Below, piece by piece: positions 1,321 to 53,273 of a stretch of DNA of 64,000 bases. The stretch is taken from positions 1,302,001 through 1,366,000 of the forward strand of contig NZ_CP014230.1 of assembly GCF_001553625.1 (NCBI RefSeq). Reading direction: 5' to 3'. This DNA comes from Desulfomicrobium orale DSM 12838 (GTDB lineage: Bacteria > Desulfobacterota > Desulfovibrionia > Desulfovibrionales > Desulfomicrobiaceae). Every line of letters starts with the position of its first letter. The first letter of the stretch is position 1. The notes under the pieces were generated by a model that searched no databases, was not told the DNA's origin, and saw nothing but the letters and a program-made list of their open reading frames with translations. The translations under genes and the position numbers were made by a program.

Positions 1321-1400
1321 ACATTCTCTTTGGAGCCGTGTTTGCGGCAGCGGTCTGGCATTTCTTCGGGGAAAGACTGGCCATTTCCGGAGAAGCTTCT

Positions 1401-3995: not shown

Positions 3996-4000
3996 AGGTG

Positions 4001-4969: not shown

Positions 4970-5003
4970 GGCGTTTCTCCAGGCGTCAGCCCGACTTCGG
5001 CGC

Positions 5004-5810: not shown

Positions 5811-5847
5811 GATCGTCTCTCCTTAAATAATGAATTTCCGGCGGCGA

Positions 5848-5880: not shown

Positions 5881-5909
5881 TCTAATGCTTTGCTCGTGTC
5901 GGAAAAAGA

Positions 5910-5999: not shown

Positions 6000-6013
6000 A
6001 ATGGAGTTGTACC

Positions 6014-6039
6014 TATGCGCCGCTGTCGGAGGCTGTCAA
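6014..6039 (-). promoter_or_regulatory. Candidate promoter of the aromatic operon leader
   Basis: On the minus strand a perfect TTGACA (6034-6039) is followed after about 16-18 bases by a weak CATAGG/TAGGTA -10 region. Transcription would begin a few bases before the leader ATG at 5999, giving a very short untranslated leader. The -35 is convincing and the -10 is not. Confidence 0.45.
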
Positions 6040-6193
6040 GAAATAATCCGGTATGTTAAAAGATTTCATCCCGCCGGTCCGTTGGTCCGGGTCGGCCTCC
6101 GGAGCTTGCCGCCTGGACAGGCAGAGCATAGTGCGGAGCGAAAGGGAAACTCTGGGCCGTGGAGATCGCGGCCAGAAGACCATGGAGACGCCC

Positions 6194-6610: not shown

Positions 6611-6654
6611 ATCGGACGGCGGTCTGGATTCCGTAACAGCATCAGAGGACACAC

Positions 6655-8954: not shown

Positions 8955-8985
8955 GACCGCGGCATCCCGGCTCTGTCTGCCGGTT

Positions 8986-10194
8986 TCAGGCCGGTACGGA
9001 GCCGGGAGCGGTCCGTTCGGCCGGAGAATGGGCCAGTTCCAGCAGCGCCCGGCAGAGCAGATGCGGGTCAACGGCTCCGGCAGCGCCGGTCAGCGGTGTG
9101 ACGACGACGCGTACGCCCAGGCCGGCCAGCTCCCGCTCCGGACTGGTGCATCCCGGATAGGCCGTATTCGGATCGAGCAGTACGCAGTCCAGCACGTCGC
9201 TTGGGGCGATGGCTTGTGGCGCGTCGGCCCGCAGGTGGCGCAGCAGGATTTCCGTCTGCTTTTTGAGGGACAGGCCGATGCTTTCGGGATCGGGCAGGGT
9301 GTTGGGCACGAATACCTTGGGCGCGGCGGTCCGGCTTATGGCCCGGCCCACGCCGGACGGAAGCAGGTTGGCCACAAGGGAGCTGTAAAAGCTGCCCATG
9401 GGATAGCAGATCAGATGGGCGGAGCGGATGCGCCCAAGAATGTCTTCCCTGGCGGGTGGCCGCACGGGCCGGGCGGGTTCGTCCGGGCGCACCAGATGCA
9501 GTTCCCGCAGAGGCGATGTCAGCGGCGGCACTTCCTTGCCGGTCAGAAGGTGCTGCCCGAGAATGCGCTGTCCGTTTTCCAAAACGCCCAGCAGATGCAG
9601 ATCATCGTCGAGCATGAGGCGCACATCCCCCCGCGCCGCCACCAGACCGGCATACAGTGCTGTCGCCGGGTCCATGCGCCGTCCGTTTTCCAGATAGGCC
9701 GCCGTGAGTACAAGGTTCCCAAGGCTCGCTCCGCGCGGATCGAAATCCGGCCCGGCCTCCCGGAAGACGCCCAGCAGATGCCTGAGGCGCGTGTTTGCGG
9801 GCCCGGTCACCGCCGCAAGAAGCGCGTGGTCCCCCCTGGCCAGAGCGGCCAGTTCCGTGCGCAGAATTTCCGGATCGCCCTCCTTGGGCAGCCGGTGGGA
9901 CAGCATGCCGCATATGGCGGAAATTTCCGGCCGGGAACGGTCGGCCAGGGCCATGAGGCGGCTGCGCATGTCGCCCACGGCGGGCATACGGAAATACCGG
10001 CGCAGCACGGCCGAACTGCCTCCGGAGTCGAACGGGGTGACCAGATGGATGGAATGGGGCGTGTGCCCGGCCAGAACGCGGCTTGTTTCCCTCAGGGCTG
10101 TTCCGCCGGAGAAAAAAAGAATGCGCGGGCCCGGGGCGGCCTGAACGTCCCGCTTACTGATGGGGCGGCGTGGGATCGCTGTACTCCTCGCCAT
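8986..10194 (-). CDS. CofD/YvcK-like protein of the GAK type
   Basis: The N-terminus RILFFSGGTALRE, then HLVTPFDSGGSSAVLR and MPAVGDMRSRL, matches the CofD/YvcK nucleotide-binding fold in the variant called CofD-like of the GAK system in deltaproteobacteria. CofD transfers 2-phospholactate to the F420 precursor and YvcK regulates gluconeogenesis; the substrate of the GAK subtype is unknown. A downstream YPMGSFYSSLVANLLPSGVGRAI segment resembles the CofD core. The start is uncertain: the ATG at 10194 lies inside the previous gene (about 40 bp overlap), while the first conserved residues begin near 10125. The GAK partner genes (an ATP-grasp enzyme and an XXXCH protein) are not in this window. 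Confidence 0.75.
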   Translation of the reverse strand: MARSTAIPRRPISKRDVQAAPGPRILFFSGGTALRETSRVLAGHTPHSIHLVTPFDSGGSSAVLRRYFRMPAVGDMRSRLMALADRSRPEISAICGMLSHRLPKEGDPEILRTELAALARGDHALLAAVTGPANTRLRHLLGVFREAGPDFDPRGASLGNLVLTAAYLENGRRMDPATALYAGLVAARGDVRLMLDDDLHLLGVLENGQRILGQHLLTGKEVPPLTSPLRELHLVRPDEPARPVRPPAREDILGRIRSAHLICYPMGSFYSSLVANLLPSGVGRAISRTAAPKVFVPNTLPDPESIGLSLKKQTEILLRHLRADAPQAIAPSDVLDCVLLDPNTAYPGCTSPERELAGLGVRVVVTPLTGAAGAVDPHLLCRALLELAHSPAERTAPGSVPA

Positions 10195-10741
10195 CGACGG
10201 TTTCGGCATCGCGGATGATGGCAATGGTTCTGCGCAGCTGATCCTCGGAAATCAGGTGTTCCGAGTGCAGCCAGTGAAACTTGCGGATTTCCTCTTCGGG
10301 ATCGTTGCCGAAGTCGATGTCGCCGTACCACTCCAGCAGCTGTTTCTTCCTGCGCTTGTTGATTTCCTCCATGAGTGTATCGTACCGGCCGTCGCGGAGA
10401 AGAGATATTTCTCCGGCGTCGGAAGGCAGATAAATCACCTCCGCCCTGATCAGGGCATGGGCGGCCAGACACGCGGGAGCGGCCAGCAGAAAGAGTGGTC
10501 CGTACGGGTCGGCATGCAGGAGGGCGTGGGCGGCCTGAACCAGACCCCAGAAAAACAGGGCCACAGCACAGGCGAAAAGCGCGGCGTTCTGCTCCAGACC
10601 GGAACCGGGCTCCATCCGGATGGAGCCGTAGGGGACTTCGAGCCTCTGGACTCCGTGCCAGTCCTTGCGGACGCAGATCAGGTTTTCCGCTTCAAAAACG
10701 AAGCTCGTGGAGAGAAGAGGGCTTTTCTGAACGATACGCAT
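10154..10741 (-). CDS. Two-helix membrane protein of unknown function
   Basis: 195 residues with two adjacent hydrophobic segments (about residues 58-75 and 84-105) inside an otherwise soluble protein. The N-terminal 55 residues are PH-like in feel (beta-rich, ending VPYGSIRMEPGSG). The C-terminal half is charged (INKRRKKQLLEWYGDIDFG), followed by an acidic tail. The ATG at 10741 has a near-perfect AGGAGG 8 bases upstream, so the longer upstream frame is rejected. It overlaps the 5' end of the CofD-like gene and is probably co-transcribed with it. I do not recognise a named family. Confidence 0.65.
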   Translation of the reverse strand: MRIVQKSPLLSTSFVFEAENLICVRKDWHGVQRLEVPYGSIRMEPGSGLEQNAALFACAVALFFWGLVQAAHALLHADPYGPLFLLAAPACLAAHALIRAEVIYLPSDAGEISLLRDGRYDTLMEEINKRRKKQLLEWYGDIDFGNDPEEEIRKFHWLHSEHLISEDQLRRTIAIIRDAETVDGEEYSDPTPPHQ

Positions 10742-10868
10742 GCTTACGGCCTCCTGTTGCCGGGCGATACGGTGGCAGGGCGGAGGCGGTTCGTCAAGAC
10801 GGGGAGAAGACCGGGCCTTCCATATGGCTGAACGGCCTCGCCAGCGGAATGAACGGTTCCGCCGGGAA

Positions 10869-10904
10869 CAAAAAAGGCTTCCCCGCATGAGGAAGCCTTT
10901 TTTT
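10869..10904. terminator. Bidirectional terminator downstream of qmoD-like gene
   Basis: A run of A, then GGCTTCC, a loop and GGAAGCC, then a run of seven T. It can end the minus-strand qmo operon and would also work on the plus strand. Confidence 0.85.
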
Positions 10905-10924
10905 CTGGAGCAACAAACCGTTTT

Positions 10925-11599
10925 TTACCAGTTGGAATCGGAGAAGGGGTCCTGGGCTCCGCCGGAGAAGCCGAAATCGTCTCCGGCTCCCACTTCGACC
11001 GGGGCTCCGGAGTCGTTCGCAGCGGCCGGAGCGGCACCAGCGGCGGCAGGGGCTGCCCCCGCCACGCCAGCGACCACCACGCCGGTCTTTTTCACTTCGT
11101 CCACTTCCTTCAGCAGGGCTTCCAGCTTGCCCGTGAATTCCACGATGCGGGCTTCGGTGGTCACGAACAGGGCTTCGGCCTCGCTCTTTTTCTGGTCCTC
11201 GAATTCCTTCACCTTGGCGGACAACTCGGCGATTTTGGCGTCCTTTGCTTCCAGGGCCTTGGTCAGTTCCTCGACCTTGGCCGCCTTGGCGTTGATCTGG
11301 GCCTTGTAGTCGGCCAGCTTGGCGAATACTTCGTCCACCTCGGTCTTGGCTTTGACGGGCATGGGGGCCACGGAGACGGACTGCCCCAGTTCGACGACCT
11401 GTCCCTTGGACATTCTGGTCAGTTCCGGATGCTGTTCGTAGATCCAGGCCTTGGCCAGGGCGGCGGCGAAGGGCGTGGAATCGGCGTCCAGGGTTTTCTG
11501 GGTCAGATATCCGAGCATCTCGGCCACGGAGGCGTTTTCGTCACCTTTCAGGCAGGCCACAAACGTATCCATGGGAAAAATCTTGCGAGCTTCAGACAT
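10925..11599 (-). CDS. qmoD: Coiled-coil protein distal to qmoC (QmoD-like)
   Basis: 224 residues. The first 70 resemble a small helical domain (DTFVACLKGDENASVAEML). Residues 85-165 are a heptad-rich coiled coil of Lys/Glu/Ala, an Ala-Pro linker follows, and the tail ends acidic and aromatic (DDFGFSGGAQ, then SDSNW). The position directly after qmoC corresponds to qmoD of Desulfovibrio vulgaris, a hypothetical gene in the qmoABC transcript. I assign the symbol from position and general character, not from a remembered alignment. No signal peptide or membrane segment is seen, so it is probably cytoplasmic. It lies 17 bp after qmoC with a good AAGGAGG, and a strong terminator follows. Confidence 0.6.
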   Translation of the reverse strand: MSEARKIFPMDTFVACLKGDENASVAEMLGYLTQKTLDADSTPFAAALAKAWIYEQHPELTRMSKGQVVELGQSVSVAPMPVKAKTEVDEVFAKLADYKAQINAKAAKVEELTKALEAKDAKIAELSAKVKEFEDQKKSEAEALFVTTEARIVEFTGKLEALLKEVDEVKKTGVVVAGVAGAAPAAAGAAPAAANDSGAPVEVGAGDDFGFSGGAQDPFSDSNW

Positions 11600-11616
11600 G
11601 GCGTCCTCCTTAGAAA

Positions 11617-12843
11617 TTAAAGAACAAAGATTTTATCGTCATCGATGAGTTTTTCGCCGATGGGCAGCCGCCCCACATACCGGGCATAGATGAGCGCCGT
11701 GGTCCGGTACACCAGATGCCCCAGCTTGGACCAGGGCAGGTAGGCGATGAGCATGAAGACGCTGACCAGGTGCATGTAATAGGTGAAGTAGGCCAGATGC
11801 GCGGCCGCCGCCAGACGGAACACCTGTGCGCCGATGCCGGTCAGGGTCACGGCCCAGATCACGCCCAGCAGATACCAGTCGTAGTAGCTGGATACCGATT
11901 TGCCCGTATCCGCGTTCAGCCGCCGCCGGGTGAGCAGGGTCAGGCCGGTCAGCAGCAGAATGGCGCCCACGTTGGCCAGGACTTTGACCGGGTGCCACAG
12001 GGGCATGGGCGTGTGCCCGATGGGGGCCAGGATGGATATGACCTTGCCGCCCCAATGGGTCACAGCCACGATGGAGGTCACGATGAAGCAGGCCAGAAAA
12101 CCGTAAAACAGGATCTGGTGCCCTTTGACCCGTTCTTCGTCCTCAGGCTTGTCCACGCAGTTCTTGAAGCGGGAGTGCTGCAGGATGTCGTATCTGATGG
12201 TGTCGATGATGGCGTCCTTCAGGGAGGGCTTTTTATAGCCGATAACAAAGGTCTGCGGCACCGATTCCTTGAAGCCGTCGATCATGTTCTTGATACCCAG
12301 GGCGAAGCAGATCATCACGAAGATGGCCGTCAGCCCGAACAGGGGGTCGATGGTGAAATCGCCGGGAAAGAGCAGGCCATAGATCACCTGGCCCTCTTCC
12401 GTGACCGGGAAGAACGAGCCAGTGATGGAGGCCCGGATCATCCAGATGATGGCCCAGATCACGGCGGGAATGCCCGCCAGAATGGGCAGGTATTTGGGTG
12501 AGCTCATCCACTTGCCGATGGCTGCGGGCGGCACCAGTTTGCGGTAGGTCATGTTGCGCAGGGCCCCCAGCAGATCGCCGGGTTTGGCGCCGCGCGGGCA
12601 CAGGTCCGAGCAGGTGCCGCAGTTGTGGCAGAGCCAGATGTCGATGTCGTTCAGCAGCCTGTCCTTCAGCCCCCACTGGGCCCAGATCATTTCCTTGCGC
12701 GGATAGGGATTCTCGGCGGGAGACATGGGGCACGCGACGGAGCAGGTGGCGCACTGGTAGCATTTCTTCAGATCAACGCCGCCCACCTCCTGCAGTTCCT
12801 TGACGAACTGCAGGCAGGGCTCAATCCTTGTTGTTTTGGACAT
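11617..12843 (-). CDS. qmoC: QmoC, membrane subunit of the quinone-interacting oxidoreductase
   Basis: 408 residues fusing an HdrC-like ferredoxin part to an HdrE-like cytochrome b part. Two 4Fe-4S motifs lie in the first 100 residues (CYQCATCSVACPM and CHNCGTCSDLCPRG). About six transmembrane helices follow, with histidines placed for heme b. In sulfate reducers QmoABC links the menaquinone pool to AprAB; QmoC is the membrane anchor that takes electrons from menaquinol. It is preceded by qmoB with 11 bp between. Confidence 0.96.
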   Translation of the reverse strand: MSKTTRIEPCLQFVKELQEVGGVDLKKCYQCATCSVACPMSPAENPYPRKEMIWAQWGLKDRLLNDIDIWLCHNCGTCSDLCPRGAKPGDLLGALRNMTYRKLVPPAAIGKWMSSPKYLPILAGIPAVIWAIIWMIRASITGSFFPVTEEGQVIYGLLFPGDFTIDPLFGLTAIFVMICFALGIKNMIDGFKESVPQTFVIGYKKPSLKDAIIDTIRYDILQHSRFKNCVDKPEDEERVKGHQILFYGFLACFIVTSIVAVTHWGGKVISILAPIGHTPMPLWHPVKVLANVGAILLLTGLTLLTRRRLNADTGKSVSSYYDWYLLGVIWAVTLTGIGAQVFRLAAAAHLAYFTYYMHLVSVFMLIAYLPWSKLGHLVYRTTALIYARYVGRLPIGEKLIDDDKIFVL

Positions 12844-12854
12844 ACACGCTCCTC

Positions 12855-15146
12855 CTAATATCCCTTGAACGGGTTGGGACCAAGCTTGACGATGTCCTCG
12901 ACAAACTGGTCGATCAGCTCCGGCACCTTGTCATACTCGTCGATGGCGATCTGCAGCTGCTGGACCCGTTCCGTCTCGATGCCGAGCTTGCCGAGTGTCT
13001 CGCCGATATTGTCCATGCGCCGGTTGCACAGCTCCGAGCCCTTCACGAAGTGGCACTGATAATCCTCGCCGTATTTGCAGCCGAGAAGCAGGCAGCCGTC
13101 CGTTCCCTTGGACATGGCGTCCGCGATCCAGATGGTGTTGACGGAGCCCAGGCAGCGCACGGGCACGATGCGGACATAGGGGCTCCATTTCCGGCCCCTG
13201 AGGGCGGCCATGTCCAGGGCCGGATAGGCGTCGTTCTCGCAGGCCAGGATGAGCATGCGCGGGCCGCCTGCGGCCATGTCGTCAGGCACGTCCACCTGTT
13301 TGATCATGGAACCGATCTGGTCGACGTTGTAGTTGTCGAAGGAGATGACCCGCTCCGGGCACGCGCCCATGCAGGTGCCGCAGCGGCGGCAGCGCGAGGT
13401 GTTGGGCAGCGGATTTCCCTTTTCGTCTTCATCCAGCGCGCCGAACGGACATTCTTCCGTGCAGCGTTTGCACTGCGTGCAGCGGACCATGTTGAACTTG
13501 GGATAGGACAGGTCGCCGGAGCGCGGGTGCACGGCCATGCCCCGGTTGGCCGATTCCAGACACTGGATGGCCTTGAGGGCCGCTCCCGCCGCGTCCATTT
13601 CCGCCGCAGGCAGGGTCATGGGCTGCCGCACGGCCCCGGCCGCGTAGATGCCGGTGCGGCGCGTTTCGTACGGGAAGCAGATATAGTTGGAGTCGGCATA
13701 GCCCGAGAACAGGTTCAGGTCGGGCATGGCCGGACCCTGCCTGTATTTGAGGCGCAGCACCGGGTCGAGAGCCGTGGTCGGAACCATGGCCGTGGGCAGC
13801 ACCAGCATGTCCACTTCCATCTCCACCTTGGGACCCAGAAGCGTGTCCTCCAGAACCACCACGATGTCTCCATCGCCGCCGTCCCGGACCTCGCTGAGCA
13901 CGCCCTTGGTCATCATCACGCCGGGATCGTTCTGCGCGGCCTTGTAATAGAGTTCGTTCAGGCCGGGCATCATCATGTGTTCGTACACGATCATGGCCAC
14001 GCCGTCCGGGATGAATTCCCGCACGTAGTTGGCCTGCTTCAGGGCCGCGAGCGAAGTCAGCTCCGACGTGTAAGGCAGATGCCGGTAGGTGTCCTGCTTG
14101 ACGAAATTGGTCTTGGGCGCGTCGCTTTCCTCTTTCTTCCCGGCGTCGGCCTGCGCCGCGGCGAGGGCTTCGGCCTCTTTGTCCGCGAAAGGTTCGAGCT
14201 TGTCGCCGAAGCCCGTCAGGAACATGATTTTCCTGGGCTTTTCGCCGTCCGAGGGCCGGATGATGGCGCCGCCCTTGGCCAGGACCTCGAACTCGCGGGA
14301 TGTGAGCACGTTTTTAAGCGTTCCGTATCCGAAGGGTTTCAGGAAAGAGGTGTCCTGCGGGACCCAGCCCGTGGCCACCACCACCGCCCCTGCGGACAGT
14401 CCGCGTTCTTCGCCGTTCACGGACAGGGTGACTTCGTAGTTGCCCGGCGCACCACTGATGGCCTGAACTTCGCTGCTCAGCAGGATTTCAATCCTGTCAC
14501 AGGTCTGTACGTCAGCGATTTTCTGTTCCACTCCGGTGGAGTGGGCCGCATCGTACGGATGCCTGAAGGGGGCGGTCTTGTACATGCCCACGGCCGCGCC
14601 GCCGAGAATATCCTTCTTTTCCACCAGAGTGACGTCGTATCCTACCGATGCCACATGCAAAGCCGCGGTCAGTCCGGCCCAGCCGCCGCCGATGACCAGA
14701 ACCCGCCGCACGACCTCCAGGTCCTCTTTCTGCGGAATGCCGGACTTCTGCAGTTTGATGATGCCCATGTTCACGTAATCATTGGCCATCTTGTACAGAA
14801 GCTCCGGCGTCTGGCCGGGTGCGGGTGTCTGGCCGGACGGGTCCGCGTAGCACAGCACGCACAGTTCGCGCAGGTTCACACGGTCCACCAGAATGTCCGT
14901 GCCGAACTGGTAGAAGTCCCAGTCCACACGGGGTGAGGAGCCGCAGATGCAGACCGCGTCGATGACACCCGCGTCAATGTCGGCCTGGATCATGGAATGT
15001 CCTTCGGAGCTTGCCAGACAGGGATGCGTTTTGACCACGGGGCAGGCGTCACGCCATTTTTTCTGCACATCCTCGCCCAGCTTCTGCAGATCGAGAGCTC
15101 CGCCGAGGCTTGCTTCGTCGAAATATACACCGATTTTATCGGCCAT
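12855..15146 (-). CDS. qmoB: QmoB, HdrA/MvhD-like flavoprotein subunit
   Basis: 763 residues. The N-terminal 140 residues carry an HdrA-like cysteine region. An FAD-binding Rossmann motif (VLVIGGGWAGLTAALHVA) lies near residue 150. Two ferredoxin-type clusters (CTQCKRCTEECPFG and CRRCGTCMGACPE) lie near residues 550-600. The C-terminus has an MvhD-like domain with VRCLGSVN and GCLLLGCKYGEDYQCHF. This is the standard QmoB architecture. QmoB is cytoplasmic, bound to QmoA and QmoC, and is thought to carry electrons toward AprAB. It follows qmoA after only 3 bp. Confidence 0.96.
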   Translation of the reverse strand: MADKIGVYFDEASLGGALDLQKLGEDVQKKWRDACPVVKTHPCLASSEGHSMIQADIDAGVIDAVCICGSSPRVDWDFYQFGTDILVDRVNLRELCVLCYADPSGQTPAPGQTPELLYKMANDYVNMGIIKLQKSGIPQKEDLEVVRRVLVIGGGWAGLTAALHVASVGYDVTLVEKKDILGGAAVGMYKTAPFRHPYDAAHSTGVEQKIADVQTCDRIEILLSSEVQAISGAPGNYEVTLSVNGEERGLSAGAVVVATGWVPQDTSFLKPFGYGTLKNVLTSREFEVLAKGGAIIRPSDGEKPRKIMFLTGFGDKLEPFADKEAEALAAAQADAGKKEESDAPKTNFVKQDTYRHLPYTSELTSLAALKQANYVREFIPDGVAMIVYEHMMMPGLNELYYKAAQNDPGVMMTKGVLSEVRDGGDGDIVVVLEDTLLGPKVEMEVDMLVLPTAMVPTTALDPVLRLKYRQGPAMPDLNLFSGYADSNYICFPYETRRTGIYAAGAVRQPMTLPAAEMDAAGAALKAIQCLESANRGMAVHPRSGDLSYPKFNMVRCTQCKRCTEECPFGALDEDEKGNPLPNTSRCRRCGTCMGACPERVISFDNYNVDQIGSMIKQVDVPDDMAAGGPRMLILACENDAYPALDMAALRGRKWSPYVRIVPVRCLGSVNTIWIADAMSKGTDGCLLLGCKYGEDYQCHFVKGSELCNRRMDNIGETLGKLGIETERVQQLQIAIDEYDKVPELIDQFVEDIVKLGPNPFKGY

Positions 15147-16551: not shown

Positions 16552-18537
16552 CTAGTCAGGGATGATCTGGTAGTAGTGTCTCTTGAAGATTTCAGTTTCA
16601 CCGGTGGCCGGGTTGAACTTTGAGTTCACGAAGCACTTCCACTTGGAATCGTCCAGGCCCATGAAGTCCGCGCGATAGTAGAAGCCGGGATAGCGGCTTT
16701 CCTGGCGGAAACGGATGTGCTGCATGTGCAGACGGACGGTCCACAGCCTGTGATACTGTTCCCAGCAGCGGAGCAGTTCGTGCAGGTCGCGGGCGGCCAG
16801 CTTCTTGGAGTCCTCTTCGAGCATGTCGAGCAGGGTGAAGCCGGTGTCCAGCAGCCTCTCGGACGTGGTGTACAGGGTCGCCACACCGCCGCCGTATTCA
16901 TCAGTGGCCTTGATCAGGCGCATCATGAAGTTGTTGGGCGTGATGTAGTTGGGGTTGACCACAGGATCGGTGGAAGCGGCCTTGAATTCCTCGTAGGTGT
17001 ACCAGGGCTGATAGATTTCCTTCTTCAGCGCTTTGGCGTCGAGGGTCAAAGTGGGCTTGAAGTCTTTGTGATCAAGAGCGTAGCGGACCAGCTGCTTGCC
17101 CACGATGCGGCCCTCGGCATGGGAACCGGAGGAGAACTTGTGGCCGGACGCACCCACACCGTCGGCGCAGGTGAACAGGCCGTTGACCGTGGTCATGCGG
17201 TTGTAGACTTTTCCGTTGTCGGCCTTGATCTTGTATTCTTCGGGAACCCAGTCCTCGTTCGGGCCGGACGCCCAGATGCCGCAGCAGCCGGAGTGGGAAC
17301 CGAGCAGATAGGGCTCGGTGGGCATGATTTCAGAGCCGCGTTCCTCGGGCTTGATGTTCATGGCCGCCCACAGGTTGGCCTGACCCACGCACATGTCGAG
17401 GAAGTCTTCCCAGGCTTCGGATTCAAGATGCTTCTGCTCAGCCTTGGAGAGTTCCTTGAAGGTGGTCTGCAGAGCGGTGGCCGTATCCATGTAGATGGGA
17501 CCGCGGCCTTCGCGCATTTCACGCAGCATCATGTGGTTGCGCAGACAGGTCGGGATGACGTGTCCCTTGGCGTAGCCGCGATCCTCGTAGGGCTTCAGCA
17601 TGGCGCGGTTGGTCACGCAGTAGTCTTCGCCCTTGGCGTTGGTGGCCTTGGCCTTGAACAGCAGGAACCACGCGCCGACCGGGCCGTAGCCGTCCTTGAA
17701 GCGGGCGGGCACGAAACGGTTTTCCATCATGGTCATCTCGGCGCCGACCTGCGCACACATGGTGTAGGTGGAACCGGCGTTCCATACGGGATACCAGGCG
17801 CGTCCGAGACCCTCGCCAGTGGAGCGGGGCCGGTACACGTTGACCGCACCGCCGCAGGCCACGGACATGGCTTTGGCCTTGATGACATACACTTTGTTCT
17901 CGCGCACGGAGAAGCCGACCGCACCGGCGATCTGGTTGGGTACCTTGGCGTCGAGGAGCAGCTTCACGATGAACAGGCGCTCGATGTAACGGTCGCTGCC
18001 CAGAGCATTTTTGGCGGCCTCGCCCACGATGACCTTATAAGATTCGCCGTTGATCATGATCTGCCAGCGGCCGGAACGCACGGGCGCGTCGCCCTTGGCC
18101 AGAGCCAGACCTTCTTTCTTGGCCTGAGCGCCGTCCAGGTTCTTGCCGTCCTTCTTGATCCAGCAGGGCAGGCCCCACTCTTCAAACAGGTGCACGGAAT
18201 CGTCCACATGACGGCCCAGATCAAAGATCAGGTCTTCGCGGACCAGACCCATGAGGTCGGTGCGAACCATGCGCACATAGTCATCGGGCTCGTTTTCGCC
18301 GATGTAGGTGTTGATGGCCGAAAGACCCTGGGCCACCGCGCCGCCGCGGTCGATGGCGGCCTTGTCCACCAGGAGCACCTTCACGCCGGCCTTGTCGGCC
18401 CAGCGGCAGGCTTCGAATGCGGTTCCACAGTTGCCCATGCCGGCGCCAACCATGAGAATATCGGTTTCAAGCTCCACTACTTCCGGCTCAGCCAGGGCCA
18501 AACCCTTGACCGTGTCTTTGACAGGAATCTGAGGCAT
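16552..18537 (-). CDS. aprA: Adenylylsulfate (APS) reductase alpha subunit
   Basis: AprA holds the FAD active site that reduces APS to sulfite and AMP in dissimilatory sulfate reduction. The 661-residue protein is full length. An FAD motif (DILMVGAGMGNCGTAFEA) lies near residue 25. It also has GAVAQGLSAINTY, the RFVPARFKDGYGPVGAW segment and a late HSGCCGIWASGP. The ATG at 18537 has AGGAGG 6-11 bases upstream. It sits 38 bp after aprB, the usual aprBA order, and is followed by a perfect intrinsic terminator. It acts in the cytoplasm and receives electrons from AprB. Confidence 0.98.
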   Translation of the reverse strand: MPQIPVKDTVKGLALAEPEVVELETDILMVGAGMGNCGTAFEACRWADKAGVKVLLVDKAAIDRGGAVAQGLSAINTYIGENEPDDYVRMVRTDLMGLVREDLIFDLGRHVDDSVHLFEEWGLPCWIKKDGKNLDGAQAKKEGLALAKGDAPVRSGRWQIMINGESYKVIVGEAAKNALGSDRYIERLFIVKLLLDAKVPNQIAGAVGFSVRENKVYVIKAKAMSVACGGAVNVYRPRSTGEGLGRAWYPVWNAGSTYTMCAQVGAEMTMMENRFVPARFKDGYGPVGAWFLLFKAKATNAKGEDYCVTNRAMLKPYEDRGYAKGHVIPTCLRNHMMLREMREGRGPIYMDTATALQTTFKELSKAEQKHLESEAWEDFLDMCVGQANLWAAMNIKPEERGSEIMPTEPYLLGSHSGCCGIWASGPNEDWVPEEYKIKADNGKVYNRMTTVNGLFTCADGVGASGHKFSSGSHAEGRIVGKQLVRYALDHKDFKPTLTLDAKALKKEIYQPWYTYEEFKAASTDPVVNPNYITPNNFMMRLIKATDEYGGGVATLYTTSERLLDTGFTLLDMLEEDSKKLAARDLHELLRCWEQYHRLWTVRLHMQHIRFRQESRYPGFYYRADFMGLDDSKWKCFVNSKFNPATGETEIFKRHYYQIIPD

Positions 18538-45083: not shown

Positions 45084-45260
45084 TCTGTTTCGAGACCTCC
45101 CGCATCGCCATGTCCATAGCGGGCTTTTTTTCAGGTGTCCGGGGGCGAAACGCGGCTGATGAGATGATATGATGGAAAGCTTTCCGTAAGGGACTGCACA
45201 GAAACGGGCCGTCGGCCTTAGAGGCGGAATACAGAGCCGGTTTCCACCGGAATCAAAAAA

Positions 45261-45303
45261 GGGCTTACATGTACATGTAAGCCCTTTTATTTGTCTGGCT
45301 CCC
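45261..45303. repeat. Distal attachment repeat (attL-like) of the tRNA-Asn island
   Basis: GGGCTTACAT-GTAC-ATGTAAGCCC, then TTTTATTTGTCTGGCTCCC. The same order of hairpin and tRNA 3' end occurs at 53161-53205, with differences mostly in the hairpin loop and one C/T. It is a copy of the tRNA-Asn 3' terminus (the inverse of GGGAGCCAGACAA) and its terminator, as left by site-specific integration at a tRNA gene. Confidence 0.75.
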
Positions 45304-45387: not shown

Positions 45388-46647
45388 CATTGCTGTCCGG
45401 CTAAGGGATAAGAAAAGAGTCCAAAATCTCAGCGATGTGTGGTAAAAGAAATCACCACAACATCTTGCCACACAAGGAGATTCTGGACTTGAGTCACCAT
45501 AATACACTATTCTCCCAGACGCTATCTCTGATTCCCAGACATGTTTTTCAGAAACTCGAAAGACGGCACAAAACCGGGCGCTCGTCGCGTCAATTCGGTT
45601 TCAAGGAGCAGTTCACGGTCATGGCCTTCATCCAGCTTGCCGCAAGACGTTCCATGCGCGATGGCCTGCGCTGCCTTGAGGCTGCGGGAAACCGCCTGTA
45701 TCACTGGGGACTGAAAAACGTGGCCCGCTCGACCTTTGCTGACGCGAACAATTCTCGCCCCGTAGGCTTTTTCAAGGATCTGTTCGCCGAGATGTACGGC
45801 CTGTGCGCCGCAAAAGCCCCGAAGCACAAATTCCGTTTCAAATCCAAATTGTTCAGTCTGGACGCCACCACCATAAAGCTTTGCCTGTCGCTTTTTCCCT
45901 GGGCCTCGTTTCGGCAGGCCAAGGGCGGCGTCAAAGTACATACCTTGCTGGATCACGATGGCCATATCCCGGCTTTCGCAACCGTCACCGACGCCAAAAC
46001 CCATGAAAGCCGCATAGCTCAGGCTATGGAGTTGCCCAGGGGCTCCATCGTGGTCTTTGACAAGGGCTTCATCAGCTATCCCTGGTTTCGGATCCTCGGG
46101 GCAAAGGGTGTCTTTTTTGTGACCCGGCTCAAGCGCAACGCCGTTTTCAAACTCCTGGAGCGCCGCCTCGTGAATCGCAAGACCGGCGTTACTTCCGATC
46201 ACATCATTGAAGTCTCCAGCCGGGGAAAATCCTTACGCTTGCGCCGTATCGGCTATCGTGACCAGGAAACCGGGAAACACTACGAATTTTTGACCAACCA
46301 TTTCCGGCTTTCGGCGAAAACCATCGCCGACATCTATAAAGACCGCTGGCAAATCGAGCTCTTCTTCAAGGAAATCAAACAAAATTTGCGCATAAAGACC
46401 TTCGTCGGCAACTCGGAAAACGCTGTCCTGATCCAGATTTACACGGCCCTGACGGTTTACCTGCTCCTCGCGTACCAGAAATTCCTCAGCCGTCTCGGAC
46501 TCTCCGTACAGCAACTCTTCCAGCTCATTCAACTCAACCTGCTCGGCGAGGCATCCTTGGATGAACTCCTGAATCCCAGACGACGAAAATTCGATAATTC
46601 ATATAACTTCAAACTGTTAGATTACATCGCTTAGCCGGACAGCAATG
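45388..46647 (+). mobile_element. Intact IS4-family insertion sequence, 1260 bp
   Basis: The terminal inverted repeats are CATTGCTGTCCGGCTAAG at 45388-45405 and its perfect inverse complement at 46630-46647 (18 bp). The flanks carry a 9-bp direct repeat, TTTCCGTGA, at 45379-45387 and 46648-46656, which is the target duplication. The single transposase gene fills the element. Perfect ends and duplication indicate a recent, probably active insertion. It has landed in the 3' end of a decayed minus-strand gene. Confidence 0.95.
45489..46634 (+). CDS. IS4-family transposase
   Basis: About 381 residues from a TTG start (LSHHNTLFSQ) preceded by AAGGAG; the open frame begins 18 codons earlier inside the left end. 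The DDE catalytic residues are placed as in IS4: FSLDATTIKL for the first Asp, VVFDKGFISY for the second, and the YREK-like motif YKDRWQIELFFKEIKQ for the Glu. The N-terminal RSSRQFGFKEQFTVMAFIQL is typical of this subgroup. The gene ends 13 bp before the right end of the element. No frameshift is needed. Confidence 0.95.
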   Translation: MSHHNTLFSQTLSLIPRHVFQKLERRHKTGRSSRQFGFKEQFTVMAFIQLAARRSMRDGLRCLEAAGNRLYHWGLKNVARSTFADANNSRPVGFFKDLFAEMYGLCAAKAPKHKFRFKSKLFSLDATTIKLCLSLFPWASFRQAKGGVKVHTLLDHDGHIPAFATVTDAKTHESRIAQAMELPRGSIVVFDKGFISYPWFRILGAKGVFFVTRLKRNAVFKLLERRLVNRKTGVTSDHIIEVSSRGKSLRLRRIGYRDQETGKHYEFLTNHFRLSAKTIADIYKDRWQIELFFKEIKQNLRIKTFVGNSENAVLIQIYTALTVYLLLAYQKFLSRLGLSVQQLFQLIQLNLLGEASLDELLNPRRRKFDNSYNFKLLDYIA

Positions 46648-47097: not shown

Positions 47098-47310
47098 ATG
47101 AGAACTAAAAAAGATACGAGGCTTGGGACTGAGCAGAGCGATCTGGCAGATAAGATCAGAGAGTTACGTTCCAAACTGGGCATGACTCAGGAGCAGTTCG
47201 CTGCCAAGGTCGGGGTTACTTTCTCAACCGTTAACCGCTGGGAGAGCGGTAAGAGCAAGCCTTCGCCTTTGGCCATGCGCCAGATCGAAGAGCTGATGGA
47301 GCGTACATAG
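47098..47310 (+). CDS. XRE-family helix-turn-helix regulator
   Basis: 70 residues from the ATG at 47098, which has GGAAGGG 6 bases upstream. The core IRELRSKLGMTQEQFAAKVG, then VTFSTVNRWESGKSKPS, is a Cro/CI-type helix-turn-helix, and almost nothing else is attached. It sits at the head of the island's gene block in the same direction, 115 bp before the next gene, and is the likely repressor of the system. AT-rich promoter-like sequence (TTGACATCATTTGG; TATAT) precedes it near 47020-47070. Confidence 0.9.
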   Translation: MRTKKDTRLGTEQSDLADKIRELRSKLGMTQEQFAAKVGVTFSTVNRWESGKSKPSPLAMRQIEELMERT

Positions 47311-47424
47311 GACAGATACGGAACTGTCCTTTTGCAAGGAGACATGTCGCCATGAATAGAAAAGCACGGATCGGGGCGGCAAAGGCGTCAAGAGTCCCGT
47401 GGACGATTTGTAGAGGAGAAACGT

Positions 47425-48249
47425 ATGGAGTTTCCTGTTGAGATGATTGATCAAGTCCGCGAGCTGCATGCCCAAGCGAAGGCGGACACACAGCGCCTCA
47501 AGGCCGAGGCGGAAGTAGCCGCTCAGGCGGAAAGGGCCTGGGCGGAGTTTCATGCCTTTCTTGACAAGGGCTGGACGTTGCATCTGCTCGCCTTGCTCGA
47601 AAAGGGAGCGCCACGGTTAAAGAAGATGAGAGCGGAAAACCACCCGGCTATTCCGGCAATCGAGGACGCCTATCGCAGGGCAAAAGAGGAGCGTGACCGC
47701 ATTTTCCGGCGCTTCCCATCGCTCCTTGAGGAAGCCTTTGCCAACAGCGGTTTGTCCATTGATCCGACGAGCAGACATCCCAAATACACCTTGGAAAGTG
47801 GGTTCTTTCGATTGGAGATCGACGAGAAGAAGCAAACCGCCCGCCTGTCGGACCATGAAGGGCGCTTGGCGGAAATCCCGGCGGACGTACAGGCTGTTGT
47901 TGAAACCGTTCGCAGGGAACGCCAGCGGCTTTTTGACCGGAAATACAATGCCAAGAAGTTCCTCCAGACTGTGCGGTCCCAATATAAGGCAATCATCAGG
48001 AAAGAGAAGCAGCCGGACGGTTCGAGCGTGCCCATCCGTCATATCACGCGCAGGCTGGGCAAGAACGTGAAGGGATTTCGCACGGATGAATTCCTTGTCG
48101 ACCTGTCGCGGTTGGCGCAGGATGGCCCATTCGAAATCGATGGACGGCGGCTGGACTTGCAGCAAACCAAAGACACCAACCAAGGGATGCTCCTGCATGG
48201 TGCCGCGGGGCGCGGCTATGTCGGGTTCATCGTCTTCAAGGAGGCGTGA
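47425..48249 (+). CDS. Unrecognised coiled-coil protein of the defence-like operon
   Basis: 274 residues. Residues 1-100 are charged and helical with coiled-coil character (QAKADTQRLKAEAEVAAQAE). Residues 115-150 form beta-like strands (KYTLESGFFRLEID). Residues 155-190 are helical and basic. The C-terminus reads IRHITRRLGKNVKGFRTDEF, then LLHGAAGRGYVGFIVFKEA. I do not recognise a domain. It starts after a good GAGGAGAAAC and ends 2 bp before the first ATPase gene, so it belongs to the operon. A TerB-type or structural adaptor role is possible but there is no motif evidence. Confidence 0.7.
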   Translation: MEFPVEMIDQVRELHAQAKADTQRLKAEAEVAAQAERAWAEFHAFLDKGWTLHLLALLEKGAPRLKKMRAENHPAIPAIEDAYRRAKEERDRIFRRFPSLLEEAFANSGLSIDPTSRHPKYTLESGFFRLEIDEKKQTARLSDHEGRLAEIPADVQAVVETVRRERQRLFDRKYNAKKFLQTVRSQYKAIIRKEKQPDGSSVPIRHITRRLGKNVKGFRTDEFLVDLSRLAQDGPFEIDGRRLDLQQTKDTNQGMLLHGAAGRGYVGFIVFKEA

Positions 48250-48251
48250 TC

Positions 48252-49517
48252 GTGGATCAAAAAATCGTCGCAACCCAGGTGGTGGAGTCGCTCCGCAAGG
48301 GCATTCCACCTCAGCGCGGAGTCGATCTCTATTCCGTGGGCAACGAGAAGCTCATGGAAGGCGTCAAGAAATTCCACCTGAATGGAATCGCGGATCGTGG
48401 CATTATTCGCTTTGTCAGCGGCTCGTGGGGCGCGGGCAAGACTCACTTTTTTCGCCAGCTTCGCGAGGCGGCGTTTCATGGCGATTGTCTGGTTTCCAAT
48501 GTCGAACTGGATGTAAGCAGCGCGGCTTTGAACAAGTTTCAAAGCGTATTCGCCGCCATCGTCCGCCAGATCGCCACACCGTCCTATTACGCCGGACACG
48601 CGACTCTTGAGGCCGCGCCATTCGGTACGGTGGTTCGTGAATCCTTGGCCTGGCTCGCCACGGGTTCCCGCCAGATCGGCGACGAAATCCCCTACGAACA
48701 ATATACCAAGGCTGGCGAGTTATTGATGTCCGACCGCGGCATCGATATCGACTTCAAGAAGATGATTCAGAAGTACTGGGAAACCTTCCTGCCGGAAGCC
48801 CCCGATCCCGCCGCAATCGAACAAACGCGCGGCGAAATTCTCCAGTGGTTCAGCGGCGAAGGTACCGTCGGCGCCTTTCGCAAGCGGTTCGGAGTCAGCA
48901 AAATTGTTTCAAAGGATAACGCCAAGCTTATGCTTCAGTCGCTTGCGGCGTTCGTCCGTCTCTCCGGTTTCAAGGGATTGCTGATCCTGTTCGACGAGGC
49001 GGAACAAGCCTATTCCGTCATGCGCAAATCGGCATTGCGCGAAGCCCACAACAACCTTCTATCGCTCATCAACAATATCGAATCGCTTCCCGGTCTTTTC
49101 CTGATCTATGCCACCACGCCAGACTTCTTCTCGGACCCCAAGCACGGCATCGTCGTCTATGGCGCGCTTTCCGGAAGAATCGGTAAACCCGAGGAGCGCC
49201 ATCCCCGCGCATTGGATACCATTTGGAACCTGGACGCCGTTGAAACCAAGCTCGATGACTATCAGGAGGCTGCCCGGAAGATACGAGCTGTCTATGCAAT
49301 GGTGTATCCGGAGGCCGATTCAACCTTGCCGTCCGAATCTACCGTCGCGGACAAGGTGGCTGAACTGTTCCGCATCCATCCTTCCCTTGCCGCTGTCCGG
49401 TTCTGGCGGCTGCTCGTGACGGCGCTCATCTCCGACTTCGACGACCACATGGAAGGCGAGCCCCGGGAAACAGAGAAACTCTACGATGACGTGATGGACC
49501 GCCTCCGGGAGGATTAA
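48252..49517 (+). CDS. BrxD/DUF2791-like P-loop ATPase (first paralog)
   Basis: 421 residues from the GTG at 48252 (GGAGG 7 bases upstream; a GTG two codons earlier is too close to it). The N-terminus QVVESLRKGIPPQRGVDLYS and the Walker A GSWGAGKTHFF, then Walker B KGLLILFDEAEQ, match the DUF2791 ATPases called BrxD in BREX systems. The C-terminal third contains ESTVADKVAELFRIHP and looks like a winged-helix or lid part. BrxD is required for BREX type 2 defence, but its precise activity is unknown. Base composition is less GC-rich than the core genome. Confidence 0.8.
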   Translation: MDQKIVATQVVESLRKGIPPQRGVDLYSVGNEKLMEGVKKFHLNGIADRGIIRFVSGSWGAGKTHFFRQLREAAFHGDCLVSNVELDVSSAALNKFQSVFAAIVRQIATPSYYAGHATLEAAPFGTVVRESLAWLATGSRQIGDEIPYEQYTKAGELLMSDRGIDIDFKKMIQKYWETFLPEAPDPAAIEQTRGEILQWFSGEGTVGAFRKRFGVSKIVSKDNAKLMLQSLAAFVRLSGFKGLLILFDEAEQAYSVMRKSALREAHNNLLSLINNIESLPGLFLIYATTPDFFSDPKHGIVVYGALSGRIGKPEERHPRALDTIWNLDAVETKLDDYQEAARKIRAVYAMVYPEADSTLPSESTVADKVAELFRIHPSLAAVRFWRLLVTALISDFDDHMEGEPRETEKLYDDVMDRLRED

Positions 49518-49520
49518 GCT

Positions 49521-50705
49521 ATGCAACCCAACGAAGCGCGGCGGGTCATCGAGTCGTTACGTAAGGGAATCCCTCCGGATGGATTCGTGCGGGATTTCAC
49601 TGTCGGACGCAGAGAGGAAATCAAAGAACTTCAGCGACACCTTTCGGATGCTGGCGGAACCGCTCTATTATTGAAAGCCAACTATGGCGCGGGGAAATCC
49701 CACCTAATACGGTTTATACGCGAAGAAGCGCTCGAGCAAAGATTTGCCGTAAGCGTAGTCACTTTAGATTCGAGTTCAGCTATTCGCTTTAATCGAATGG
49801 ACCAAATCTTCGGAGCCATCTGTCGTAATATTGAAACTCCAGATCGGTGCCATACAAAAGGAATTCGGTGTCTCCTCGATGCTCTCAAGGACCAAATACA
49901 TGCAAAATCTGGAGGGCCGTTCTGGAATGATCTGTCGAACGGATGGAAGTGGGACTATTCCGAACGCCTCGACAGCCCAGCGCTATTTGTGGCTATACGC
50001 GCTTGGGCAACCGGCAATGCGAAGGCCTGCGATCTTATCGAGGACTGGTTGCTGAATCCTTGGCAATATAGGGGGCAAAGAAAAAGACTCTACACCCACC
50101 TCGTTGAGAATATGCGAAAACACTTTCGAGATTCAAGGCCCGAATGGAAATTCTATGCTGATGAAGTGTTCATGTTTCACACAGGGGGCTATGCACAAAG
50201 CTGGGCGGCATTACGCGACCTCGAACGTCTTGCTTGTGCTGTGGGACTAAAAGGGTTGGTCATCTTGTTTGATGAGTTTGAGGACGTGATTACGAACTTG
50301 CGCAACGTCGCGCATCAGGAGGTTGCGTTCTGGAACCTATTCCATTTCTATTCAGGAAAGCAGTTTCCTGGGAAGACGTTTTACGCCGTGACTCCAGGAT
50401 TTGTTGAGAAATGCAAGATAAGACTGCTTCAGAAAGGTAGATGGGACATGGACTTGTCAATGTTTGACGCCTTACCAAAATTCGAGATGTCTCCTCTCAG
50501 TCGACCCCATTTGGTTTCGCTTGGAGAGAAGATCGTCAAAATCCACAGCTTAGCTTACGAATGGAATGGTCAATTTTCGGTGAGCCGGGAAGACCTTGAA
50601 GCCTGGATGAAAGAAGCCACAACAGTCCAATTGCAAGATAGAACACGGCAAGCTATTACAACGATAGTGAAACGGCTCGATACACTCTTTCAGGATGCGG
50701 AATGA
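49521..50705 (+). CDS. BrxD/DUF2791-like P-loop ATPase (second paralog)
   Basis: 394 residues. It repeats the start of the preceding gene (EARRVIESLRKGIPPDGFVR), so the two are paralogs. Walker A is KANYGAGKSHLIRF, Walker B is KGLVILFDEFED, and an arginine-bearing segment lies at SPLSRPHLVSLGEK. Residues 120-220 form a long insertion rich in Trp and Lys. It follows the first ATPase after 3 bp, with GGAGG 8 bases before the ATG, and overlaps the helicase start by ATGA. Its composition is visibly more AT-rich than either neighbour, so the operon may be a mosaic. Confidence 0.8.
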   Translation: MQPNEARRVIESLRKGIPPDGFVRDFTVGRREEIKELQRHLSDAGGTALLLKANYGAGKSHLIRFIREEALEQRFAVSVVTLDSSSAIRFNRMDQIFGAICRNIETPDRCHTKGIRCLLDALKDQIHAKSGGPFWNDLSNGWKWDYSERLDSPALFVAIRAWATGNAKACDLIEDWLLNPWQYRGQRKRLYTHLVENMRKHFRDSRPEWKFYADEVFMFHTGGYAQSWAALRDLERLACAVGLKGLVILFDEFEDVITNLRNVAHQEVAFWNLFHFYSGKQFPGKTFYAVTPGFVEKCKIRLLQKGRWDMDLSMFDALPKFEMSPLSRPHLVSLGEKIVKIHSLAYEWNGQFSVSREDLEAWMKEATTVQLQDRTRQAITTIVKRLDTLFQDAE

Positions 50706-52867
50706 ATATCAACCTTGATAAAGCCGTTGCCTCCGCATTTTATGGCCATTTCAAAGAGCTGCGTGATGCGCAACAAGCAGTGATAGAGCCGCTATTGGAT
50801 GGCCGCAATATTGTGCTTACATCCGGAACGGGGTCTGGCAAGACCGAAGCCGTGATGGCACCATTGGTCAGTAAGTATTGGCGGGATGCCGTCCGCGATG
50901 ATTATCTCTTTCTGCTCTACATCGTGCCGACCAAGGCTCTAGTCAACGATCTGGAGAAACGGCTCCACCCGCCATTGGCCGCTTTGAACCTGCGCGTGGG
51001 AGTGCGGCACAGCGACCGGGACGACCTGAAGAGCGGCCCTACGCCTCATGTGCTTATCACTACCCCCGAATCGCTTGATGTGATGCTGTTTCGGAAGGAC
51101 CCGGCTTTTGATTCAATACGGGCTGTTGTCGTTGACGAAGTTCACTTGCTCTACAACACGCAACGAGGGCTTCAGCTATCCGTCCTTTTACAGCGCTTAC
51201 GGCGAAGCCTGTCGCACGACCTCCAATGCGCCGCACTCTCGGCCACGGTGGGAGATCTGTCCCATATACGCGATTTTCTGCTGGGCGCTGAGGAGAACGC
51301 CGAATTACTCGCGTTCTCGGCGGCCCGCTCAATTGACGCTCAAATCCGTCATATCGAAAATCCGCATCAATTGCTCTCGCTTGTTCAGAAGATTACGGAA
51401 GGACGGCCAACGAAGCTGCTCATCTTCGCGGATTCTCGCCGGGAGTGCGAACGCCTGGCAGGCATATTACAGGATGACGAGACCCTCCGGCATAGCGTCT
51501 TTGCCCACTATTCTTCTCTCTCGCCTGAAGTGCGGCTGGACACCGAGCGCAAATATGCCGTGATGCGCACGGCCATTTGCGTGGCGACGAGTACGTTGGA
51601 ACTTGGTATCGACATCGGCAATATTGACGCAGTGTTGCTATGGGGCGTTCCTTCGGGCGTCGATTCGTTTCTGCAGCGCATCGGGCGCGCCAACAGACGC
51701 TCCAACAAGACCAATGTCGTCTGTCTTGTGCCGGATGATTCCGAGTCCGTGCCGCTGGATGCGCTCCGTTTCGCCGTAATGCTGGATGCCGCCTCGAAAG
51801 GGGATCTGCCAATTTACGAGCCGTTTGAACTGTTTGGGGCCGCCGGTCAACAATGCCTCAGTATCATTGCGTCGGACGATGGCCGATTCACGCGAATAGC
51901 CGATCTTTGCGATTTGCTCAGGCATAAGTCCTGTCTTCAGCGCGATGTTGTCGAATCCATCCTGGCCGAACTTGCGTCGAATGGTTTCCTTCAGCGGCAC
52001 GGATACAAGAATCGCTATGGCGCGGACGAAGAAGTCCATCGACTCGTCGATATGAAGATGATCTACGGCAACTTCGGGGTAGGTTCTCAGACTGTTGACC
52101 TGTTTCACGGGGCAAAACGACTTGGCGAGGTGCCCGCCATCAACCTGTTGCGGATTCGCGGCAGTATTGCCGTGCGATTCGCCGGGAAGAATTGGCGGGT
52201 GAAAAAAGTATCGCGTGAAGGAATACACTTGGAGGCCTGCAAGGGAAGGACGGAATCCATAGAGTTTTCTTATGGAGGAAGCGGGATTTCCTCCAATCCA
52301 TACATCACGGACCGTATGTGGGCATTCATTCATACGGATGGCGCGGTGCAGGATCAATTCAGCATCGCGCTTTCGGAGACAGTCGGGAAATTTATCTCGT
52401 CCATACGTAAGTCTTGTGACTTTCCGCAAGTCCCGTTTTCCAGAGCGGCGGAAGGTATTCGCTACTACACGTTTGGGGGTTACATCGTAAACCGTGCAAT
52501 CGGCCTGTTTTCGGGCAAACCGGAATTCAAGGCCGATGATGTGTCTTTGCTTGTCCCGTCGCAGATTGACTGGTCCACACTCCCGGAGAACCCCACCGAG
52601 TATGAGGATATCTTCCATTTGCTGTTTGAAGCCACTGTGGCGCAATCCATCTACCAGAAGCAATTGCCATTGGAACTCCAAGAGCGCGAATACCTTCAGG
52701 CTTGGCTCAAGGACACGGCAATTCCTCGCATCCTTGCCCGGTTGCGAAATGCCAAAGCTGTTGCATGCAATACTTTTGATACAGGTGAGAGCTACCGCTT
52801 CCGAGTTTTTCGGGCCGGAGCTGTTCAACTTCGCCGGAATCTTGTCACTCCCAATGAGCTTCGCTAG
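50702..52867 (+). CDS. DEAD/DEAH superfamily 2 helicase (Lhr/BrxHI-like)
   Basis: 721 residues. Helicase motifs in order: LTSGTGSGKTEAVMA (I), VPTKALVNDLEKRL (Ia), VLITTPESLDVMLF, VVVDEVHLLYNT (II, DEVH), CAALSATVGD (III), ICVATSTLELGIDIGNID (V) and FLQRIGRANRRS (VI). This is the Lhr-like layout of BrxHI in BREX type 2. After the two RecA folds come about 370 residues including a winged-helix part and a novel C-terminal region (PFSRAAEGIRYYTFGGYIV). It is coupled to the second ATPase by ATGA and is the last gene of the operon. Confidence 0.88.
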   Translation: MNINLDKAVASAFYGHFKELRDAQQAVIEPLLDGRNIVLTSGTGSGKTEAVMAPLVSKYWRDAVRDDYLFLLYIVPTKALVNDLEKRLHPPLAALNLRVGVRHSDRDDLKSGPTPHVLITTPESLDVMLFRKDPAFDSIRAVVVDEVHLLYNTQRGLQLSVLLQRLRRSLSHDLQCAALSATVGDLSHIRDFLLGAEENAELLAFSAARSIDAQIRHIENPHQLLSLVQKITEGRPTKLLIFADSRRECERLAGILQDDETLRHSVFAHYSSLSPEVRLDTERKYAVMRTAICVATSTLELGIDIGNIDAVLLWGVPSGVDSFLQRIGRANRRSNKTNVVCLVPDDSESVPLDALRFAVMLDAASKGDLPIYEPFELFGAAGQQCLSIIASDDGRFTRIADLCDLLRHKSCLQRDVVESILAELASNGFLQRHGYKNRYGADEEVHRLVDMKMIYGNFGVGSQTVDLFHGAKRLGEVPAINLLRIRGSIAVRFAGKNWRVKKVSREGIHLEACKGRTESIEFSYGGSGISSNPYITDRMWAFIHTDGAVQDQFSIALSETVGKFISSIRKSCDFPQVPFSRAAEGIRYYTFGGYIVNRAIGLFSGKPEFKADDVSLLVPSQIDWSTLPENPTEYEDIFHLLFEATVAQSIYQKQLPLELQEREYLQAWLKDTAIPRILARLRNAKAVACNTFDTGESYRFRVFRAGAVQLRRNLVTPNELR

Positions 52868-53085: not shown

Positions 53086-53160
53086 AGATACCGAAGGCCA
53101 TGCGGATACTTAATCCCGTGGGACTTTGCCCCTTTTCCGGGTTTCTGTCGAAAACAAGAA

Positions 53161-53205
53161 GGGCTTACATATTTCTATGTAAGCCCTTTTACTTGTCTGG
53201 CTCCC
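53161..53205. repeat. tRNA-side attachment repeat (attR-like) of the island
   Basis: GGGCTTACATA-TTTC-TATGTAAGCCC, then TTTTACTTGTCTGGCTCCC. The last bases are the 3' end of tRNA-Asn on the minus strand and the hairpin is its terminator. It matches 45261-45303 in the same orientation. Confidence 0.75.
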
Positions 53206-53273
53206 CGGGACAGACTTGAACTGCCGACAGGGTGGTTAACAGCCACCTGCTCTGCCAACTGAGCTACCGGGGA
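53198..53273 (-). tRNA. tRNA-Asn (anticodon GTT)
   Basis: On the minus strand the acceptor arms TCCCCGG and CCGGGGA pair, followed by G and an encoded CCA. The D arm is GCTCAGTTGGCAGAGC. The anticodon stem GGTGG/CCACC closes CTGTTAA with anticodon GTT. The T arm reads TCGGCAGTTCAAGTCTG-like. It is 76 nt including CCA. Its 3' end is the integration point of the island on its downstream side. Confidence 0.96.

Follow-up and report, generated by a model that had tools for sequence, protein, structure and literature searches.

A four-gene module with twin BrxD-type ATPases and an Lhr-type helicase in Desulfomicrobium orale, a candidate anti-invader system outside BREX and Shango

Is a short run of genes that resembles one arm of a type 2 BREX (bacteriophage exclusion) system a fragment of that system or a unit in its own right? 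The question is raised by positions 47098–52867 of a 64,000-nucleotide stretch of the genome of Desulfomicrobium orale DSM 12838 (NZ_CP014230.1, positions 1,302,001–1,366,000; hereinafter the window, to which all D. orale coordinates refer). The original prediction, made from the sequence alone, described an independent anti-phage system of five co-directional genes, and all five open reading frames (ORFs) are present at these positions on the plus strand. The conserved core consists of four of these genes, not five; they belong neither to BREX nor to the anti-phage system Shango. We consider the module, with a probability of about 0.58, to be a self-contained, horizontally moving anti-invader system with a Shango-like mode of action, which represents a separate lineage with its own partner protein and a doubled ATPase. 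The genes of the locus are:

47098–47310, plus strand: XRE/HTH_3 (helix-turn-helix) regulator, 70 amino acids (PF01381, E value 9e-16); local, not conserved with the module
47425–48249, plus strand: OrfB, 274 amino acids, conserved partner protein, family unassigned (homologs in at least 20 loci; AlphaFold2 model with a predicted local distance difference test (pLDDT) score of 91.3)
48246–49517, plus strand: ATPase1, 423 amino acids, BrxC_BrxD family (PF10923), Walker A and B motifs intact
49521–50705, plus strand: ATPase2, 394 amino acids, divergent PF10923 paralog, Walker A and B motifs intact
50702–52867, plus strand: superfamily 2 (SF2) helicase of the Lhr-core type, 721 amino acids (domain matches, motifs and fold match to Lhr, 5v9x)

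A conserved unit of four genes

The gaps between consecutive genes from orfB to the helicase gene are −4, +3 and −4 nucleotides; therefore, the translational coupling that had been proposed for the last three genes holds and extends to four. The order OrfB-ATPase1-ATPase2-helicase is the same in 15 loci in which all four genes are readable. The module is spread across several phyla (at least five bacterial ones) and is found on two plasmids; in its diverged forms, identity to the window proteins drops to 16–30% while gene order and coupling are retained, and the −4 overlaps between module genes recur in other loci. The pairwise identities of the four proteins change in parallel (r of 0.96–0.98 across the 15 loci and 0.72–0.93 among the compact six), a pattern that would be expected of four genes traveling together. 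The XRE gene, which is separated from orfB by 114 nucleotides, was set aside as a core component given that a tblastn search finds no copy of it in 22 other loci. The mechanical ORF of this gene begins at 47059 and the ATG at 47098, with GGAAGG ahead of it, is the better start; a scan for promoters and terminators reveals no excess over shuffled sequence. In the Desulfomonile locus, an unrelated HTH-annotated gene is located upstream of the module, and one Shango locus (L019) also has an upstream XRE gene, a further likeness to that system; thus, an upstream regulator may recur without homology. The loci, identified in searches with OrfB, are distributed as follows:

Compact forms: L009 (Sumerlaeota; the contig ends in ATPase2), L010/L069 (Atribacteria), L011/L068 (Phycisphaerae), L012 (genome G182)
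Compact forms, plasmid-borne: L016 (Aulosira laxa plasmid3), L017 (Desulfomonile tiedjei pDESTI.01)
Diverged forms: L013/L053, L014, L015, L045–L049, L061, L112
Incomplete or less clear examples: L051, L052, L062–L065

In L048 (positions 10564–11631), a 119-residue ORF that looks MazF-like by eye is inserted between ATPase2 and the helicase; the operon is not interrupted to a large extent in any other locus.

Both ATPases belong to the PF10923 family, with profile matches above the gathering score of 22.2 (E value 8e-47, 160.5 bits for ATPase1; E value 6e-25, 88.4 bits for ATPase2) and intact Walker motifs, and they are paralogs of each other (29% identity, E value 2e-18), in agreement with the original prediction; no solved structure matches them by sequence. 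The helicase contains the DEAD (E value 6e-29) and Helicase_C domains of Pfam, and SF2 motifs I, II, III and VI are intact. Its model (m2e6c4b6fb384, pLDDT 80) superposes as a whole on the core of Mycobacterium smegmatis Lhr (5v9x) with a Z score of 31.1 and a root-mean-square deviation of 4.0 over 627 residues, which places it in the Lhr-core class of SF2 helicases; unlike full Lhr, with which it shares 24% identity, it is shorter and linked to AAA+ partners. Given that all reading frames and the Walker and SF2 motifs are intact, the module is not a decayed remnant.

Searches of Pfam, NCBIfam and PADLOC assign OrfB to no family at a significant level. The high-confidence AlphaFold2 model comprises a long helical, coiled-coil region (residues 5–107), a small beta sheet (residues 120–152) and a C-terminal helix/strand domain. 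The latter (residues 163–274) matches many winged-helix chains at Z scores of 5–7, a range below the level that excludes a merely common arrangement, and is only suggestive of a winged-helix-like C-terminus. Assignment of OrfB to a known PDB family was rejected, there being no convincing match by either sequence or fold. A search of 2.9 million viral contigs with an OrfB profile, the seed of which was one short motif only, identifies no relative, and the phage collection contains no match to ATPase1.

Separation from BREX and Shango

The D. orale genome is a single contig of 2.78 Mb. No match to PglZ (PF08665) is detectable in this complete genome whereas the control genomes are positive, and the only PF10923 genes in the whole genome are the two in the module. 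PglX, PglY/BrxC and PglW are missing among the five genes, and the surrounding insert (45.3–53.1 kb, see below) adds only a transposase-like ORF. The absence of the methylase, PglZ and PglY/W, as originally claimed, is thus borne out, genome-wide in the case of PglZ and within the module and the insert for the others. The module resembles the BrxD-BrxHI arm of BREX type 2 in the tight linkage of a BrxD-family AAA+ ATPase with a Ski2/Lhr-like helicase, and differs from it in the lack of PglW, PglX, PglY and PglZ and in the presence of OrfB and of two ATPases.

The nearest validated stand-alone relative is Shango, not BREX-2, which the original prediction took as the reference, missing this closer functional relative. 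Shango, which protects Pseudomonas aeruginosa PAO1 from phage (PMC10250203), combines an ATPase and a helicase with a TerB protein. Both systems show the succession of a partner gene, a BrxD-family ATPase and an Lhr/BrxHI-like SF2 helicase, and both are stand-alone and mobile; they differ in that Shango combines a TerB_N-TerB-TerB_C partner with one ATPase whereas the module combines OrfB with two. In the five Shango loci compared, the SngA proteins bear TerB_N, TerB and/or TerB_C domains; OrfB lacks a Pfam TerB match, and an hhalign profile comparison of OrfB with SngA yields an E value of 0.74, that is, no similarity. No SngA-type or TerB gene is present beside the module; a TerB_N search of the whole genome was likewise empty, as were its positive controls, and the absence is firm locally only.

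The profile scores separate the module proteins from both systems. Against the NCBIfam BrxD equivalog NF033438 (cut-off 350), ATPase1 scores 126.4 bits and ATPase2 61.7. With the PADLOC models, the ATPases reach 129 and 60 bits as BrxD and 98 and 52 bits as SngB, and the helicase reaches 297 bits as BrxHI and 243 bits as SngC, compared with 552 and 929 bits for true BrxD and BrxHI of Aulosira and 579 and 911 bits for true SngB and SngC of Phaeobacter; the window proteins therefore fall outside both families. The helicase tree separates every OrfB-linked helicase from SngC and BrxHI with a support of 100/100. In the ATPase tree, a common group of SngB and BrxD (98/91) excludes both module ATPases, and the deeper joins are weak and long-branched; SngB and SngC each make up a separate clade. 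Shango and the module also occur together, at different sites, in one Phycisphaerae genome. Membership in Shango was rejected on account of the missing adjacent SngA-type gene, the dissimilarity of OrfB and SngA, the two ATPases and the tree.

Consistent linkage to a complete BREX cluster, which would have identified the module as a fragment, is not observed: only two compact-clade loci adjoin BREX genes, of type 2 in Aulosira (L016/L066) and of type 3 in Atribacteria (L069). The Aulosira module is carried by a conjugative plasmid, 172 nucleotides downstream of a BREX-2 run with its own PglZ, BrxD and BrxHI; two large proteins encoded upstream occupy the PglY and PglX positions, as judged from size and position only. 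In the Atribacteria locus, the module is convergent with BrxA, PglZ, BrxC, PglXI and BrxF of BREX-3 (positions 3052–12910), and the 19.7-kb contig shows no BrxHII. The sequence read at the remaining compact-clade loci, in which not every neighbor was scanned, contained no recognizable BREX gene. BREX is thus an occasional neighbor rather than the parent cluster. The interpretation of the D. orale module as a BREX fragment was rejected considering the genome-wide absence of PglZ, the distinct clade and the intact genes.

Mobility and variant relatives

The module lies in an island, as had been predicted, delineated by the following features:

45237–45303: left direct repeat resembling an attachment (att) site, a terminator hairpin plus 8 nucleotides matching the 3' end of tRNA-Asn
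45435–46634, plus strand: transposase-like ORF in the insert, outside the module (ORF list; no PADLOC match), which we take, by eye, to be of the IS4 type
53137–53205: right att-like direct repeat, which extends into the 3' end of tRNA-Asn
53198–53273, minus strand: tRNA-Asn(gtt), marking the right boundary of the insert (ARAGORN)

The repeat pair consists of 29 nucleotides at 97% identity and a 34-nucleotide arm at 71%, and its 28-nucleotide core is present in exactly two copies in the genome. The repeats bracket the transposase-like ORF, the XRE gene and the module in a 7.9-kb insert with a guanine-plus-cytosine content of 51–55% versus about 60% outside; no integrase remains in it. OrfB is missing from all 15 other genomes of the genus, and the distribution of the module is patchy (1 of 16 genomes of the genus and 13 of 395 in the phylum). 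No empty integration site is seen, as the contig of the closest relative, G696, ends at the left flank gene. These features fit integration of a small element. In Desulfomonile, the module resides on a 27-kb plasmid, pDESTI.01, with AbiE and ParA genes nearby.

Some relatives of the module carry additional enzymatic domains. In the sister clade (L053, L045–L049 and L014), the helicase gene encodes 1100–2034 amino acids and includes a Cas4/Dna2-like PD-(D/E)XK region (PF12705, E value 5e-5, in L045; Cas4 family, E value 1e-4, in L047) with four invariant cysteines in a C...CxxC...C pattern, and a superfamily 1 (SF1) helicase similar to MkoA of Mokosh is either fused or encoded in the next gene. 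L045, L014 and L048 have the full nuclease motif, which is altered in L053 (GDTM), L047 and L049. As judged from these motifs, the nuclease-helicase fusions tie the module to probable DNA cleavage in at least some relatives, and they point to DNA as the target. A DruA gene (PF14236; L053, positions 17097–18059) adjoins an extended-helicase form.

In five other loci (L113–L117, from G130, G148, G332, G192 and G152), OrfB and the ATPase pair are accompanied by an SNF2 helicase instead of the Lhr type, for which the best match is ZorD (E value 1e-72; ZorD/DpdE-like), and by a conserved protein of 185–188 amino acids (MPIPYRDADEL...). ATPase1 of this branch is short (316–336 amino acids), with no P-loop recognized by eye, and would be consistent with a pair of active and inactive subunits. 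A plasmid of Deinococcus psychrotolerans (L072, positions 1349–10094) encodes a 451-residue unknown protein followed by a BrxD/BrxHI-like pair, with a second BREX-type ATPase 3 kb after the pair, possibly another variant.

Possible function and competing explanations

The module is a cousin of BREX-2 and Shango yet a member of neither, which makes it a good candidate for an unreported block on invading DNA. For BrxD, an ORC/Cdc6-type fold and loading of the BrxHI helicase have been proposed independently (PMC12839542). Judging from the homology to BrxD, ATPase1 and ATPase2, whose pairing is suggested by gene coupling and co-inheritance, would most probably assemble into a heteromeric, ATP-dependent loader and switch that would load and license the Lhr-type helicase. 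OrfB, with its long helices and winged-helix-like C-terminus, might recognize some feature of foreign DNA as it invades or replicates or, alternatively, bridge DNA to the ATPases, as a DNA-facing adaptor or sensor. The helicase would then translocate on foreign DNA and unwind or strip it, so that replication stops or the DNA is exposed to nucleases of the host or the system. The original prediction invoked the ESLRKGIPP start shared by the two ATPases as a sign of a hetero-oligomer; the L-R-x-G...P pattern is found in SngB as well, and accordingly this motif of the wider family is no specific evidence for such a complex.

A role against invaders is suggested by the homology to SngB/SngC and BrxD/BrxHI of experimentally supported anti-phage systems, by the BREX-2, BREX-3, AbiE and DruA neighbors at some loci, and by the repeat-bounded, low-GC insert at tRNA-Asn found in a single genome of the genus. 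Several observations pull the other way. A clear defense neighbor is present at only a minority of the loci, the similar divergence of the four genes partly reflects the shared history of the host species, and the compact form, unlike its sister systems with their Cas4/Dna2-like nuclease and SF1 helicase, encodes no nuclease. For OrfB, Foldseek finds no solved fold at an E value of 1e-3 or below, leaving only the winged-helix matches. Furthermore, five loci (L107–L111, from G038, G074, G107, G136 and G163; one family accounts for four of the five genomes) contain the BrxD-like ATPase pair alone, without OrfB or a helicase, in housekeeping-looking neighborhoods, the second ATPase bearing an N-terminal extension. 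A defense role for the whole class is therefore not assured; these pairs fit genome maintenance better and are the strongest reason for keeping a maintenance role in consideration.

The rival that survives best, albeit an unlikely one, is a machine for DNA repair or replication restart carried on mobile elements, in which the AAA+ pair loads the helicase at stalled forks or damage and any effect on phages is incidental. Lhr helicases are associated with repair, the module helicase has the Lhr core fold, and the nuclease/SF1 fusions resemble Dna2, in addition to the solitary ATPase pairs; patchy distribution, plasmid and island locations, BREX neighbors and Shango as a validated relative speak against this. 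Less probable still is a function in maintenance of plasmids and islands or in competition between elements, with the module acting on rival plasmids or the stability of its own element rather than on phages: it is found on plasmids and in a tRNA-flanked insert, and pDESTI.01 carries ParA and AbiE, but the relatives Shango and BREX act on phages and the module is not accompanied by any conserved relaxase or partition gene. The least probable explanation, an accessory arm that moved with BREX, needs BREX methylation or PglZ and is stranded here as a remnant, could draw on the homology to BrxD/BrxHI and on the placement directly downstream of a complete-looking BREX-2 in Aulosira and opposite BREX-3 in Atribacteria, but is opposed by the content of the D. 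orale genome, the separate BrxD and BrxHI in Aulosira, the other compact loci as far as they were scanned, the helicase tree and the intact genes.

A broader proposal can be put forward tentatively, at somewhat less than even odds: OrfB and the twin BrxD-type AAA+ pair may be the constant core of an undescribed, phylum-spanning class of anti-invader systems with an exchangeable motor or effector, namely an Lhr-core helicase, an Lhr helicase with a Cas4/Dna2-like nuclease and SF1 helicase, or an SNF2 helicase (ZorD/DpdE-like, with one ATPase lacking a recognizable P-loop). BREX-2 BrxD/BrxHI and Shango SngB/SngC would then represent lateral offshoots of a common loader-helicase principle. The BREX-related DUF499 systems and the YprA-helicase systems (ARMADA, BRIGADE, TALON and Druantia) likewise bring together SF2 helicases and AAA+ ATPases or partner proteins, and are located on mobile islands (PMC12839542, PMC12458937); they differ in the ATPase and helicase families and mostly include a methylase or other genes. 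The passages covered in these two papers describe no module of OrfB and twin BrxD proteins, and their searched text makes no mention of Shango or TerB. No description of the module was found in open-access papers, subscription papers being outside the coverage; novelty is claimed on the strength of libraries from 2023–2026 and of the open-access literature, a non-exhaustive basis.

The PADLOC models catch the module under both BREX and Shango names, and matches to BrxD or BrxHI in defense annotation are thus not to be read as BREX. Having a single helicase and two distinct BrxD-type ATPases but no methylase, the module, as a minimal system, would allow a direct test of the loader-helicase idea.

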